Shown here: positions 28,035 through 49,339 of the stretch, piece by piece
Layout of the letters: every line of letters starts with the position of its first letter
How positions within the stretch are numbered: the first letter of the stretch is position 1
Origin: Candidatus Neomarinimicrobiota bacterium
GTDB taxonomy: Bacteria > Fidelibacterota > Fidelibacteria > Fidelibacterales > Fidelibacteraceae
Assembly: GCA_021157965.1 (NCBI GenBank)
Contig: JAGGVO010000048.1
Span: forward strand, 1 to 54,260
Reading direction: 5' to 3'
Length of the DNA stretch: 54,260 nucleotides
Made by a program: the position numbers and the translations under genes
Notes under the pieces: model-generated
The model's database searches: none
What the model saw: the letters and a program-made list of their open reading frames with translations, nothing else
What the model was told of the DNA's origin: nothing

Positions 28035-28508
28035 ATGACAGAGATGATTAAACCCTTTTCGCATCTCTATTGGATGCGATTTGCGTATCAGGAAGCGGAA
28101 AAAGCCTTCGAAATGGGGGAAGTTCCCGTCGGCGCAGTACTTGTGCTGAATAATCACATTATCGGCAGGGGACACAATATGTGTGAAACGCTTCAGGATG
28201 CCACAGCCCATGCAGAAATCCTGGCCATTACAGCCGCTTCCGACCACCTGAAATCCTGGCGCCTGGAAAAGACAACACTCTATGTTACCCTTGAACCGTG
28301 TCTCATGTGTGCCGGTGCCATGATCAATGCACGAGTTCAAACAGTTGTTTATGGACTGGAAGATCCCAATGCCGGCGCCTGTGATTCCCTCTATCATCTC
28401 TGCGAAGACCCCCGCCTGAATCACCGGCTCCATGTTCACAGCGGCTATATGCGTGATCAGATTAAAGAACTGATGAATATTTTTTTTCAACGGTTGAGAG
28501 GGAAGTAG
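28035..28508 (+). CDS. tadA: tRNA-specific adenosine deaminase
   Basis: TadA converts A34 to inosine in tRNA-Arg(ACG). The 157 aa protein has the zinc deaminase motifs HAEILAI (His ligand and catalytic Glu) and PCLMCAGAM (two Cys ligands), with MGEVPVGAVLV upstream. The final segment VHSGYMRDQIKELMNIFFQRLR is also typical. It ends the + strand run; an 859 bp gene-free stretch with repeats follows. Confidence 0.96.
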   Translation: MTEMIKPFSHLYWMRFAYQEAEKAFEMGEVPVGAVLVLNNHIIGRGHNMCETLQDATAHAEILAITAASDHLKSWRLEKTTLYVTLEPCLMCAGAMINARVQTVVYGLEDPNAGACDSLYHLCEDPRLNHRLHVHSGYMRDQIKELMNIFFQRLRGK

Positions 28509-28877
28509 GGGGCCGTCGACAGTGGACAGTTGGCAGTGAGAAGTGCCGCGTGACGAGGGGGATTGCCTGCCATGTGAAATGGGACCCGGTTTATCGGAAT
28601 ATTTCACAGGAGATTTGACCGACACACCAAGAGCAAAAAGATGACCGGCATCTCGATACGTCCGCCTGGCGGCATTCAATAGCCGCTTTGCGGCTTTCAA
28701 AAGGCACGAGCATGCCCGTGGCAAATCCTCGTTATTCGTCACGCGTTACTCGTCACTATCCCAGACAAACCAGCTCCCCTTTCACAGGGCAGACAATCAT
28801 CCAATCTAATCAATCGCCTGTCGCCTGTCCACTGCCGACTGTGAACCCATAAACAGCGAACGCAGTGAGCTCCCAAC
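28509..28877. repeat. Non-coding mosaic of degenerate inverted repeats
   Basis: No gene is visible. Near the left edge, bases 28516-28538 are three 7-bp units of the CAGTSGR type; bases 28813-28842 contain the same kind of unit in reverse orientation. Nested inside, CGCGTGACGA at 28547-28556 is repeated inverted at 28736-28745. GTGAAAT/ATTTCAC (28574-28606) forms a further inverted pair. Two small perfect hairpins, CCGCC-T-GGCGG (28662-28672) and AGCCGC-TTT-GCGGCT (28681-28695), lie in the centre. The last 35 bases (28843-28877) are the leader shared with the second 8-bp array. Confidence 0.6.
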
Positions 28878-29301
28878 GTCCCAACGTCTCAACGTCTCAA
28901 CATCTCAACATCTCAACATCTCAACATCTCAACGTCTAAACGTCTAAACATCTCAACGTCTCAACGTCTAAACGTCTAAACATCCCAACGTCTCAACGTC
29001 TCAACGTCTCAACGTCTCAACATCTCAACGTCTCAACGTCCCAACGTCTCAACGTCTCAACATCTCAACGTCTCAACGTCTCAACATCTCAACATCTCAA
29101 CGTCTCAACATCTCAACATCTCAACGTCTCAACGTCTCAACGTCTCAACGTCTCAACATCTAAACGTCTCAACATCTCAACGTCTCAACGTCTAAACGTC
29201 TCAACGTCTCAACGTCTAAACGTCTCAACATCTCAACATCTCAACGTCTCAACATCTGAACGTCTGAACGTCTCAACGTCTCAACATCTCAACGTCTAAA
29301 C
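28878..29301 (+). repeat. 8-bp tandem array 1, 53 units, consensus RTCTCAAC
   Basis: The array has exactly 53 contiguous 8-bp units without any insertion or deletion. Base 1 is G in 35 units and A in 18. Base 5 is C in 43, A in 8 and G in 2 units. Base 4 is C in three units, otherwise T. Bases 2, 3, 6, 7 and 8 (T, C, A, A, C) do not vary. Two adjacent 32-bp blocks of four units, 28934-28965 and 28966-28997, differ by one base. There is no start codon, ribosome binding site or continuous frame that would suggest a gene. Confidence 0.97.
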
Positions 29302-29367: not shown

Positions 29368-32292
29368 GTGATACAAGCGTTGGATGCTCTGAAAGCTACG
29401 TTAAAAGGTGAATTGTTCACGGATAATGCCACACGGATCATTTATGCCACAGACGGATCTGTCTATCGGGAAAAACCACTGGCAGTCGCATGGCCGAAAG
29501 ATGAAGACGATTTAAAGGAATTGATTCGCTTTGCCCGGTTGAACAGCACATCGCTTATCCCCCGGACTGCGGGGACCTCTCTGGCCGGTCAGGTGGTGGG
29601 AAACGGGATTGTGGTGGATGTATCCAAATATATGACTGAGATTCTGGAAATTAACCCGGAGGAAAAATGGGTCCGGGTTCAGCCGGGTGTAATTCTGGAT
29701 CATTTAAACTTCTTTCTGAAAGATTATGGACTCTTTTTCGGACCGGAAACATCCACTTCCAGCCGCTGTATGATGGGGGGAATGGTGGGAAATAACTCCT
29801 GTGGAGCCCACCTTCCTATTTACGGAAGCACCCGTGAACATACCCTTTCGGTTAAAGCCCTGCTCAGTGACGGTTCAGAAGTGCTTTTTGAACCCCTCTC
29901 GGCAGAAGCCTTTCATGCAAAAACCCGTCTGAATACTCTGGAAGGAAGGCTCTACCGACATATTCAGGAAATGCTTGAAAATCCCGTTAACCGCAATCTA
30001 ATCCGGGATAATTACCCAAAACCCACAATTCCCAGACGGAATATGGGTTATGCCCTGGATATCCTCATGGAAATGCAACCCTTCAATCCACAGGGAAAAC
30101 CGTTTAATTTTTCATCCCTTTTAGCGGGATCGGAAGGGACTCTGGCTTTTTTCACCGAAATCACATTGGGTCTGGTGCCGCTGCCCCCAAGAGAAACAGC
30201 TGTTGTCTGCTGCCATTTTGAAAAACTCGAAGAAGCTTTCCATGCCAATTTAATTGCCCTGAAATACAAACCCGGTGCCGTTGAACTTATGGACAGGTAC
30301 ATCATGGATTGTACTAAAAACAATATCGGTCAACGAAAGAATCGTTTTTTTCTTCAGGGGAATCCTGCCGCTCTGATGATGGTGGAATTTCGCCGGGATA
30401 GCCGGGATGAACTGGATGCATTGACAAATGCCATGGAAAAAGAGATGCGTGCCGCCGGTTATGGATATGCATTCCCTGTTTTATGCAATGACATGGCTGA
30501 CAGGGTGTGGGAACTCAGAAAGGCCGGTCTCGGACTGCTCTCCAATATCCCCGGAGATACCCGGAGTGTCACGGTGATTGAAGATACGGCCGTAGATGTG
30601 GAAGACCTGCCGGCCTATATGAAAGAATTTGATAAGATCCTGAAAAAATACGGTAAAGAAAGTGTTTACTATGCCCATATCGGCTCCGGGGAGCTTCATC
30701 TGCGTCCCATCATTAATCTGAAAGACTGTGATGAAGTGGAAATATTTCGTTCCATCCTTATGGATGTGGCTCAACTGGTGAAAAAGTACCGGGGATCTCT
30801 CAGCGGGGAGCACGGAGACGGTCGCCTGAGGGGAGAGATGATTCCCTTAATGATCGGTGACCACAATTACCGGCTTCTTCGTCAGTTGAAATTTACCTGG
30901 GATCCCAACAATTTATTCAATCCGGGAAAAATTGTAGATACTCCACTCATGAATACACACTTGCGGTATGAACCCGGACTGCCACTCCGGGAGGTTGAAA
31001 CTGTCTTTGATTTTTCACGGGTCCGGGGATTTGTCCGGGCTGCCGAAAAATGTAATGGATCAGGGGATTGCCGCAAAACCGAAGTTTCCGGTGGTACCAT
31101 GTGTCCCAGCTATATGGCAACCCGGGATGAACATCATGTAACCCGCGCCCGGGCTAATATCCTCCGTGAATTTTTAACCTATTCACCTAAAGATGACCCT
31201 CTGGATCATGAAGAAATCTATGGAATCATGGATCTCTGCCTGAGCTGCAAGGCGTGTAAATCTGAGTGTCCATCCGGTGTGGATGTGGCAAAATTAAAAG
31301 CTGAATTTCTTCAACATTATTATGACCTTCATGGAGCGCCTTTTCGTTCCAAATTGATTGCCAATATTACAAAACTCAACCGCCTGGGCTCCCTGTTTCC
31401 CGGATTGACGAATTTCTTTTTTAAAACAGGTTTGTTCCGAAAACCCTTCATGTCCATGATTGGATTTTCGGTTAAGCGGACCCTGCCTTTACTCCACACC
31501 GTAACCCTGGAAAGATGGATGCGACACTATGTCCGCACACTTCAAAAAGATAAAGGGAAAAGGCGGGTCTACCTGTTTAATGATGAATTTACTAATTTTC
31601 AAGATACACCCGTTGGGATTGATGCCATCCGATTGCTGACCCGTTTGGGATATGATGTAAAAATCCCCAGGCATAAGGAAAGTGCCCGGGCAAGTTTATC
31701 CAAGGGGTTTTTGAGAAAAGCAAAGGTTCTGGCTGAAAAAAATGTTTCCATGCTGAAGGAGTTGATTTCGGAGGAATCGCCCCTTATCGGACTTGAACCG
31801 TCAGCTATTCTCACCTTCAGGGATGAATACCCCGAACTGGTGGGAGAGGAGCTGAAAGAAGATGCAAAAAAACTGGCAAATCATGTCCTCATGATTGAGG
31901 AATTTCTGGTACTGGAAATGGATGCAGGACGGATCAACCGGGGAGTTTTCACTACTGAAGAGAAACATATTTTGCTCCATGGTCATTGTCAGCAGAAGGC
32001 TGTGGCTTCTACGGCCCCGACCCTGAAAATGCTTGCCTTTCCGGAAAATTACAAGGTGAAAGAGATTCCCAGCGGATGCTGCGGAATGGCAGGTTCGTTC
32101 GGATATGAGAAGGAACATTATGAGGTGTCCATGAAAGTAGGAGAACTTGTCCTTTTTCCGTCTGTCCGCAACGCTTCTCCTGATACAATCATTGCTGCTC
32201 CGGGGACCAGTTGCCGGCACCAGATTAAAGACGGAACAGGTCGAACTGCTTACCATCCCGTTGAAATACTCTATCAGGCTCTTAAGAAGTAG
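29368..32292 (+). CDS. FAD-linked and Fe-S-binding oxidoreductase (GlcD-GlcF/YdiJ-type fusion)
   Basis: The 974 aa protein fuses an FAD-binding 2-hydroxyacid dehydrogenase (residues ~1-540) to a ferredoxin-like and CCG-domain half (~560-974). The FAD region has IPRTAGTSLAGQVVG and GGMVGNNSCGAH; SLSGEHGDGRLRGE follows near residue 480. The Fe-S region has CLSCKACKSECPSGVDV near residue 625, and two CCG-type elements, HGHCQQKA and PSGCCGMAGSFGYE. D-lactate, glycolate or D-2-hydroxyglutarate are possible substrates. It starts at GTG 29368. Electron acceptors are not encoded nearby. The next gene begins 8 bp after its stop. Confidence 0.92.
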   Translation: MIQALDALKATLKGELFTDNATRIIYATDGSVYREKPLAVAWPKDEDDLKELIRFARLNSTSLIPRTAGTSLAGQVVGNGIVVDVSKYMTEILEINPEEKWVRVQPGVILDHLNFFLKDYGLFFGPETSTSSRCMMGGMVGNNSCGAHLPIYGSTREHTLSVKALLSDGSEVLFEPLSAEAFHAKTRLNTLEGRLYRHIQEMLENPVNRNLIRDNYPKPTIPRRNMGYALDILMEMQPFNPQGKPFNFSSLLAGSEGTLAFFTEITLGLVPLPPRETAVVCCHFEKLEEAFHANLIALKYKPGAVELMDRYIMDCTKNNIGQRKNRFFLQGNPAALMMVEFRRDSRDELDALTNAMEKEMRAAGYGYAFPVLCNDMADRVWELRKAGLGLLSNIPGDTRSVTVIEDTAVDVEDLPAYMKEFDKILKKYGKESVYYAHIGSGELHLRPIINLKDCDEVEIFRSILMDVAQLVKKYRGSLSGEHGDGRLRGEMIPLMIGDHNYRLLRQLKFTWDPNNLFNPGKIVDTPLMNTHLRYEPGLPLREVETVFDFSRVRGFVRAAEKCNGSGDCRKTEVSGGTMCPSYMATRDEHHVTRARANILREFLTYSPKDDPLDHEEIYGIMDLCLSCKACKSECPSGVDVAKLKAEFLQHYYDLHGAPFRSKLIANITKLNRLGSLFPGLTNFFFKTGLFRKPFMSMIGFSVKRTLPLLHTVTLERWMRHYVRTLQKDKGKRRVYLFNDEFTNFQDTPVGIDAIRLLTRLGYDVKIPRHKESARASLSKGFLRKAKVLAEKNVSMLKELISEESPLIGLEPSAILTFRDEYPELVGEELKEDAKKLANHVLMIEEFLVLEMDAGRINRGVFTTEEKHILLHGHCQQKAVASTAPTLKMLAFPENYKVKEIPSGCCGMAGSFGYEKEHYEVSMKVGELVLFPSVRNASPDTIIAAPGTSCRHQIKDGTGRTAYHPVEILYQALKK

Positions 32293-39056: not shown

Positions 39057-39304
39057 GCCTCAACGTCTCAACATCTCAACGTCTCAACGTCTCAACGTCT
39101 CAACATCTCAACGTCTCAACATCTCAACGTCTCAACGTCTGAACGTCTCAACGTCTCAACGTCTCAACATCTCAACGTCTGAACGTCTCAACGTCTCAAC
39201 GTCTCAACATCTCAACGTCTCAACGTCTCAACGTCTCAACGTCTCAACGTCTCAACGTCTCAACATCTGAACGTCTCAACGTCTCAACGTCTCAACGTCT
39301 CAAC
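39057..39304 (+). repeat. 8-bp tandem array 2, 31 units, consensus RTCTCAAC
   Basis: The array has 31 contiguous 8-bp units with no phase change and the same orientation as array 1. Base 1 is A in six units; base 5 is G in three. Two 40-bp blocks of five units, 39137-39176 and 39177-39216, are identical. The array lies between two convergent genes (TolC on +, the deacetylase on -). Its last partial unit (from 39305) runs into the stop codon of the - strand gene. Confidence 0.97.
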
Positions 39305-45426: not shown

Positions 45427-45534
45427 ATTAGTGTAAAAAATATAATTAATATTAAATTATAAATATTATAATATCAATTTGCATTCTAATGGTTTTTATT
45501 TTAAGATTTAACAATACAAAAAGAAGGTGTGGTT

Positions 45535-45900
45535 ATGGCTACTCATAAAGATTTGGATGTCTGGAAAGAATCCATCAATTTTGTTGTCAAAATATACAAG
45601 TTTACAGAAACTTTTCCTGATGATGAGCGATTTGGACTTATAAGTCAGATCAGAAGGGCGGCCATTTCAATCCCTTCCAATATTGCTGAAGGTGCTGCAA
45701 GGCAAACGAATAAAGAAAATTTGTATTTTTTATATGTAGCATTAGGCTCAATAACTGAATTAGAAACACAATTAATCATTGCTGAAAAATTAAACTATTT
45801 AAAACAAAATGAAGATTATTTCGATTGGCTTCAAGCAATTAAAGCAAAATTGATTAGTTATATTAGATATGTGAAATCTCTCAAGCCAATCAAAATCTGA
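45535..45900 (+). CDS. Four-helix-bundle protein (23S rRNA intervening-sequence protein family)
   Basis: The 121 aa protein matches the IVP/TIGR02436 family: HKDLDVWKESINFVVKIYKF, GLISQIRRAAISIPSNIAEG and ELETQLIIAEKLNYL are its three conserved blocks. Members were first found in intervening sequences of 23S rRNA genes; here no rRNA is nearby. The function is unknown, although the fold resembles the Avd accessory protein of diversity-generating retroelements. ATG 45535 follows AAGAAGG; GTG 45529 is possible. The gene is more AT-rich than its neighbours, which hints at transfer. Array 3 begins 10 bp after its stop. Confidence 0.9.
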   Translation: MATHKDLDVWKESINFVVKIYKFTETFPDDERFGLISQIRRAAISIPSNIAEGAARQTNKENLYFLYVALGSITELETQLIIAEKLNYLKQNEDYFDWLQAIKAKLISYIRYVKSLKPIKI

Positions 45901-45910
45901 AAATTTTTGC

Positions 45911-45990
45911 ATTCCAACATCTCAACATCTGAACGTCTCAACGTCTCAACGTCTCAACGTCTCAACGTCTCAACGTCTAAACGTCTCAAC
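45911..45990 (+). repeat. 8-bp tandem array 3, 10 units, consensus RTCTCAAC
   Basis: The array consists of ten units in the same orientation as arrays 1 and 2. The first unit is a variant (ATTCCAAC). The next two begin with A, the remaining seven with G. One unit has G and one has A at base 5. It ends in a truncated unit GTCAA like array 2. It has no leader, starting 10 bp after the IVP-type gene. Confidence 0.95.
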
Positions 45991-49121: not shown

Positions 49122-49339
49122 TCTTTTAATCGTCAGTCGGCAGTCGGCAGTCGACAGTCGGCAGTCACCAGTTGTGTGTCAGGACATAGGTAACAGTTTT
49201 GTGTCAAGAGATAGGTAACACTTTTTTGGAAATAAGGTAGCCATCATTCTGGTTTTTGTCATACAATTATTTTACATCAAACAGCTTTAAAAGACATCAT
49301 GTTCTTACAGCATGCAGGAATAAGTCGGGGTTCAATTAT
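49122..49339. repeat. Non-coding region with 7-bp and 25-bp repeats
   Basis: Between the convergent pgi and birA genes lie five 7-bp units, CAGTCGG and variants, at 49134-49168. Two adjacent 25-bp copies (49175-49199 and 49200-49224) with the core ATAGGTAACA then follow, 22 of 25 identical. The remaining ~115 bp hold nothing recognisable; no terminator hairpin serves either gene clearly. Confidence 0.7.

Follow-up and report, generated by a model that had tools for sequence, protein, structure and literature searches.

A dispersed family of degenerate octanucleotide tandem arrays between the genes of a Neomarinimicrobiota bacterium

Dispersed short tandem repeats have been known in bacteria for decades, and we know of no accepted mechanism for them. 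In heterocystous cyanobacteria, heptanucleotide repeats of the STRR type consist of short degenerate units arranged head to tail in intergenic regions at many loci. Degenerate heptamers are also found in Xanthomonas (GGGNATC) and Nostoc (GGGGA(C/T)T), where they are dispersed, mostly intergenic and form runs of 2 to 26 units (Rehm et al., 2015; PMC4692102). In two Xanthomonas genomes, the heptamers often lie between the same genes with extensive variation in length and sequence; inverted pairs are frequent, and the function is unknown (PMC4692102). The TAACTGA direct repeats of marine Beggiatoaceae are patchy in their taxonomic distribution and occur in many intergenic sets, some genomes having as many as 43 copies; they share no common gene function, and most are only a few nucleotides away from start codons (MacGregor, 2015; PMC4679880). 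Finally, the IVS of Coxiella carries tandem heptamers in variable number just upstream of the S23p open reading frame (PMC4990558).

The window considered here, the whole analysed stretch of 54,260 bp, contains three arrays of an octamer, which are listed below together with the adjoining features.

28509-28877, no strand assigned: intergenic leader left of array 1, with nested inverted heptamers and fragments of other dispersed repeats
28843-28877, plus strand: recurring array leader GAACCCATAAACAGCGAACGCAGTGAGCTCCCAAC, also present left of array 2 and of the arrays on contigs C12 and C18
28878-29301, plus strand: array 1, 53 NTCTVAAC units, dominant unit GTCTCAAC
39057-39304, plus strand: array 2, 31 octamer units, between convergent genes
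45529-45900, plus strand: S23p (four-helix-bundle, 23S rRNA intervening-sequence protein) gene, left of array 3
45919-45990, plus strand: array 3, 9 octamer units, right of the four-helix-bundle gene

Array 1 extends over 53 x 8 = 424 bp with zero insertions or deletions, the number of units being that assembled in a draft genome. Tandem Repeats Finder delimits it at 28874-29301 (period 8, 53.5 copies, 0% indels, score 639), and the base counts are G35/A18, T53, C53 and T50/C3 at unit positions 1 to 4 and C43/A8/G2, A53, A53 and C53 at positions 5 to 8. An earlier note, made from the letters alone, had described 53 indel-free units of RTCTCAAC that vary at positions 1, 4 and 5 only, and both statements hold, with position 4 deviating in just three units. 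No ORF spans the array, as the note had also maintained; it is bordered by a deaminase gene (28035-28508) on the left and, on the right, by a gene for an FAD-linked oxidase/Fe-S protein (29368-32292), the start codon of which is 67 bp downstream. The order of the unit variants is indistinguishable from random. Repeated unit words show no excess over expectation in array 1, which argues against block duplication as its sole mode of growth, and long exact unit repeats give an LRS of 4 versus 5.6 expected, with a nucleotide-level deficit that is not significant (P = 0.07). As RNA, the minus strand of the array folds at -193 kcal/mol, compared to -43 kcal/mol for the plus strand, because GACGUU is self-complementary when G-U pairs are allowed. 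The intergenic leader contains the nested inverted heptamer pairs GACAGTGGACAGTTGGCAGT / ACTGCCGACTG and GCGTGACGAGG / CGTCACGCG, has pieces matching 31 other places in the genome and, as DNA, folds with z = -2.43; its recurring right-hand part is found in shortened form at the C27 array. An Rfam scan of the window recovered one tRNA and nothing else.

The earlier note had overlooked arrays 2 and 3 and had proposed a search for the unit in this and related genomes, which revealed a family of about 16 arrays, a unit characteristic of the species and occupied orthologous sites. A three-unit pattern yields 217 matches in the 2.3-Mb draft genome (61 contigs) and its reversed control none, which excludes chance. 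Sixteen of the members fetched are arrays with 8 to 53 units, and one more is a remnant of two units; these counts, like all those from pattern searches, are lower bounds. The C6 and C9 arrays have a common flank and may be a single array split by assembly. With one unit shared by about 16 arrays (323 units) and a location between genes, they belong to the dispersed intergenic degenerate short tandem repeats. Across the 323 units, positions 1 and 5 account for 201 of the 215 deviations from the commonest base (201/646, ~31%), compared to 14/1938 (0.7%) at the other six; some arrays have C instead of A at position 1. The constraint on unit positions is thus genuine. The order of variants is mostly random across the arrays, and in the longest ones repeated unit words are not in excess. 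A two-unit period (lag 2) is present in the C12 array (p < 0.001) and, more weakly, in the C41 array (p = 0.019), and higher-order periods of two or three units also occur in the C47 array and in those at 457 kb and 1442 kb of the complete sister genome G004.

None of 13 arrays in this genome and one of 23 in G004 lies inside an ORF. For phase variation, in which the copy number of a contingency repeat switches expression from within an ORF or a promoter, this observation bears on the ORF location. The flanking genes encode, besides the deaminase and the oxidase, an efflux protein of the outer membrane and a YdjC-like protein (the convergent pair around array 2), an ABC transporter, Rrf2 and TetR regulators, a 2-oxoacid oxidoreductase and an ECF sigma factor, and no function common to them was found. 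Several arrays have unique sequence immediately on both sides. Other short repeats occur in the same surroundings. Heptamer arrays of STRR style are present in this genus; at positions 49130-49225, 2.3 copies of a 25-bp repeat, CAGTTTTGTGTCAAGACATAGGTAA, come after a short array of the heptamer TCGGCAG, and a similar stretch, CTTGACACAAAACTGTTAC, is located left of the C27 array (L051). Contig C13 (L102, L110) carries an array of ~100 bp with the 6-bp unit AACCTT/AACCTC, a separate short-unit family.

Among 61 related genomes, the three-unit pattern is restricted to the genus and two genomes of another family, which match with a different, TCC-type unit. Within the genus, the NTC..AAC pattern is found 217 times here, 39 times in G001, three times in G005, once each in G003 and G004, and not in G002. 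The pattern YCNTGARC has the reciprocal distribution, with 347 matches in G003, 197 in G001, 126 in G004, one here and none in G002 and G005, indicating that the octamer dominant at many unrelated loci differs from species to species; judged from these sequence matches, the unit type is species-specific. In the single-contig genome G004, the 23 YCNTGARC-type places that were read are short, with T4, A6 and C8 constant and positions 1, 3 and 7 variable. Spread of the unit by phages appears unlikely, as only three viral contigs match a three-unit pattern.

For 12 array sites, we compared the orthologous site in G004, where the DNA of the flanking genes is ~80-90% identical. Each of the 12 has an array of 7- or 8-bp units or a remnant of octamers; the periodicity of 11 is above the 95% line of shuffled sequence, and the twelfth (L054) retains five octamers, inverted and interrupted. 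At most of these sites the unit differs from NTCTVAAC: site 1 has CCCTGAAC plus heptamers, site 3 and L046 have YCNTGARC, and the units GAGAATT, GACTTTC and GACTGNC are found at L056, L051 and L055, respectively. Several sites retain from one to about five degenerate NTCTVAAC units, often at the right-hand boundary. In G002, a comparable array is absent from sites 1 and 3, and site 2 has a weak one. The occupied sites in G004 imply that the addresses predate the split of the two species, whereas the presence there of at most ~5 degenerate NTCTVAAC units implies that the expansion of this unit is recent. Where the earlier note had suggested selection or recent expansion, it is the expansion that is supported. 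Because the unit has another sequence in sister species while its period stays, conservation does not extend to the letters as such, and selection on TC and AAC is not established by the 14 deviations at six positions versus 201 at two.

Array 1 is a member of a dispersed intergenic family of degenerate octanucleotide tandem repeats, which we consider likely to be a small bacterial satellite that is passive, grew by slippage and was homogenised between loci. The arrays would then be fast-evolving, probably passive repeat DNA of a type known in other bacteria. According to this scenario, a short ancestral NTCTVAAC run at each of the intergenic addresses, which with their 7- or 8-bp arrays predate the split from the sister species, would have expanded via replication slippage or unequal exchange. 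One unit type would then have taken over many loci, probably by recombination or copying between them, while YCNTGARC or heptamers would have taken over the equivalent addresses in sister lineages. The arrays may persist because they are intergenic and do not disrupt start codons or Shine-Dalgarno sites. The two- and three-unit periods in some arrays are what slippage would give. However, under plain slippage identical units should stand together in local blocks, and in array 1 and most others the variants are in random order; similarly, neutral point mutation after expansion does not account for ~31% deviations at two positions versus 0.7% elsewhere. Random order combined with two-position variation calls either for much shuffling of a few founder variants or for a process that writes the units.

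The earlier note had named a passive satellite and a protein-binding array as possible. In a binding array, each octamer, as DNA or in the mRNA leader, would bind a host protein tolerant at positions 1 and 5; a regulator, a nucleoid protein or a factor similar to ribosomal protein S1 may be candidates. The strict conservation of six unit positions throughout the genome is consistent with such a role, which MacGregor (2015; PMC4679880) suggested for the TAACTGA repeats, as are the arrays of two operons (L056, L053) that stop 14 and 20 bp before start codons with the Shine-Dalgarno site intact. Of 13 arrays here with a callable downstream gene, nine share its sense direction, which speaks for such a role; in G004 only 8/23 do, which speaks against it. 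Furthermore, array 2 and the L046 array are located between convergent genes, the flanking genes have no function in common, and the replacement of the unit by other octamers or heptamers at the same sites in sister species would need explaining. By established geometry, an 8-bp pitch also puts successive sites off a single face of the helix. A genome-wide, species-specific family at conserved addresses favours the passive satellite; the binding array fits worse, and we regard it as unlikely.

Somewhat less likely still is an origin of the arrays from an insertion element of the IVS/S23p type, with a four-helix-bundle gene flanked by inverted arrays, as its arms or solo remnants. The product of the gene next to array 3 matches PF05635 (E 3.2e-36) and TIGR02436 (E 1.3e-35), and its orthologues in G003 and G004 have inverted octamer arrays on both sides (site-3 S23p loci in the comparison: L068, L115, L118). 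With its neighbours as reference, the gene has one orientation in this genome and G003 and the opposite one in G001 and G004; G001 shows the array inverted along with the gene, and G002 lacks the gene. We compared the left flank of PF05635 genes with the reverse-complemented right flank, taking the 95% line of mismatched pairs as threshold. Inverted similarity was found at 11/29 loci in the genus (P = 7e-8) and at 11/27 phylum-wide (P = 3e-8), with the loci of related species not being fully independent; in direct orientation, only four and three loci, respectively, were above the line. The test is conservative, as the line is raised by those mismatched pairs that are orthologous loci. Most of the inverted alignments are 7- or 8-bp tandem arrays, and inverted degenerate arrays with matching units surround the PF05635 gene at L112, L122, L126, L127, L131 and L136 in the genus and at L161, L168, L169, L171 and L176 in the phylum-wide set. 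This suggests, as the simple reading, that the S23p gene flipped through recombination between inverted arrays, and the recurrent inverted arrays together with the flipping gene provide a concrete hypothesis for gene movement or inversion. The nested inverted heptamers in the leader of array 1 and the heptamers preceding the S23p gene in the Coxiella IVS (PMC4990558) also fit arms of an element. By contrast, an S23p-type gene adjoins only 1 of 17 arrays here and about 3 of 25 in G004, in G004 an inverted partner within 2 kb is rare for gene-free arrays, and several arrays have unique sequence on both flanks. Array 1 itself was not assigned to the IVS/S23p elements, as such a gene is present at array 3 only and absent at arrays 1 and 2.

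The alternative to shuffling, an active process that writes degenerate units at fixed addresses, for example by repeated copying from a short template in which two positions are loosely specified, appears very improbable to us. It would explain the constant period, the random order of variants, the two-position variation and the species-wide replacement of the unit, and it may perhaps be connected with the S23p/Avd-like four-helix-bundle genes that are flanked by inverted arrays across the phylum.

Least probable of all is that the assembler created or distorted the sequence or length of the array, given that independently assembled congeners, one of them in a single contig, also have arrays of the family, that the flanks are syntenic and that no exact repeat in array 1 exceeds 40 nt, a length within the reach of ordinary short reads. 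Assembly is known to suffer from repeats, and 7/17 arrays are no more than 500 bp away from a contig end, compared to 2.6% of the genome (P = 1.4e-7), with the C18 array at ~520-540 bp; this clustering indicates that such arrays break the assembly, and their number and length are possibly underestimated. The earlier note had named an artefact as what would refute it; as regards the existence of the array, an artefact is not supported, and only the exact copy number is to be read as assembled.

Two further candidates were discarded. CRISPR arrays require repeats of ~20-50 bp and unique spacers, whereas the 8-bp units abut without spacers, in agreement with the earlier note. Mutagenesis by a diversity-generating retroelement does not fit either, the variable positions being G and C (in the complement, C and G) and not template adenines.

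Compared with the described systems, the octamers are, like the STRR repeats, intergenic, degenerate, arranged head to tail and present at many loci, but they are octamers from a different phylum, and the likeness drawn here is one of arrangement. With the heptamers of Xanthomonas and Nostoc they share dispersal, intergenic location, fixed degenerate positions and addresses conserved between relatives; they differ in the 8-bp unit, in runs of up to 53 units, in not being G-rich enough for G-quadruplexes and in the replacement of the unit type between sister species at the same address. Membership in either heptamer group can be rejected, since it requires a 7-bp unit and the period here is 8 with 0% indels. 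Like the TAACTGA repeats, the arrays are taxonomically patchy and form many intergenic sets without a common gene function, although their placement is mixed, whereas TAACTGA repeats are heptamers found mainly at start codons. Array 3 adjoins an S23p-family gene, as in the IVS/S23p elements of Coxiella and Leptospira; unlike these, the arrays are intergenic, involve no rRNA, would have tandem arrays as arms and are mostly gene-free. The genus lends itself to a clean comparison, since its intergenic addresses are conserved, the genome of a sister species is complete and the unit has been replaced species-wide, and the likeness of dispersed arrays within a genome thereby becomes a question testable by resequencing. 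Overall, the arrays are best read as an octamer variant of the type of repeat seen in Nostoc, Xanthomonas and Beggiatoaceae.
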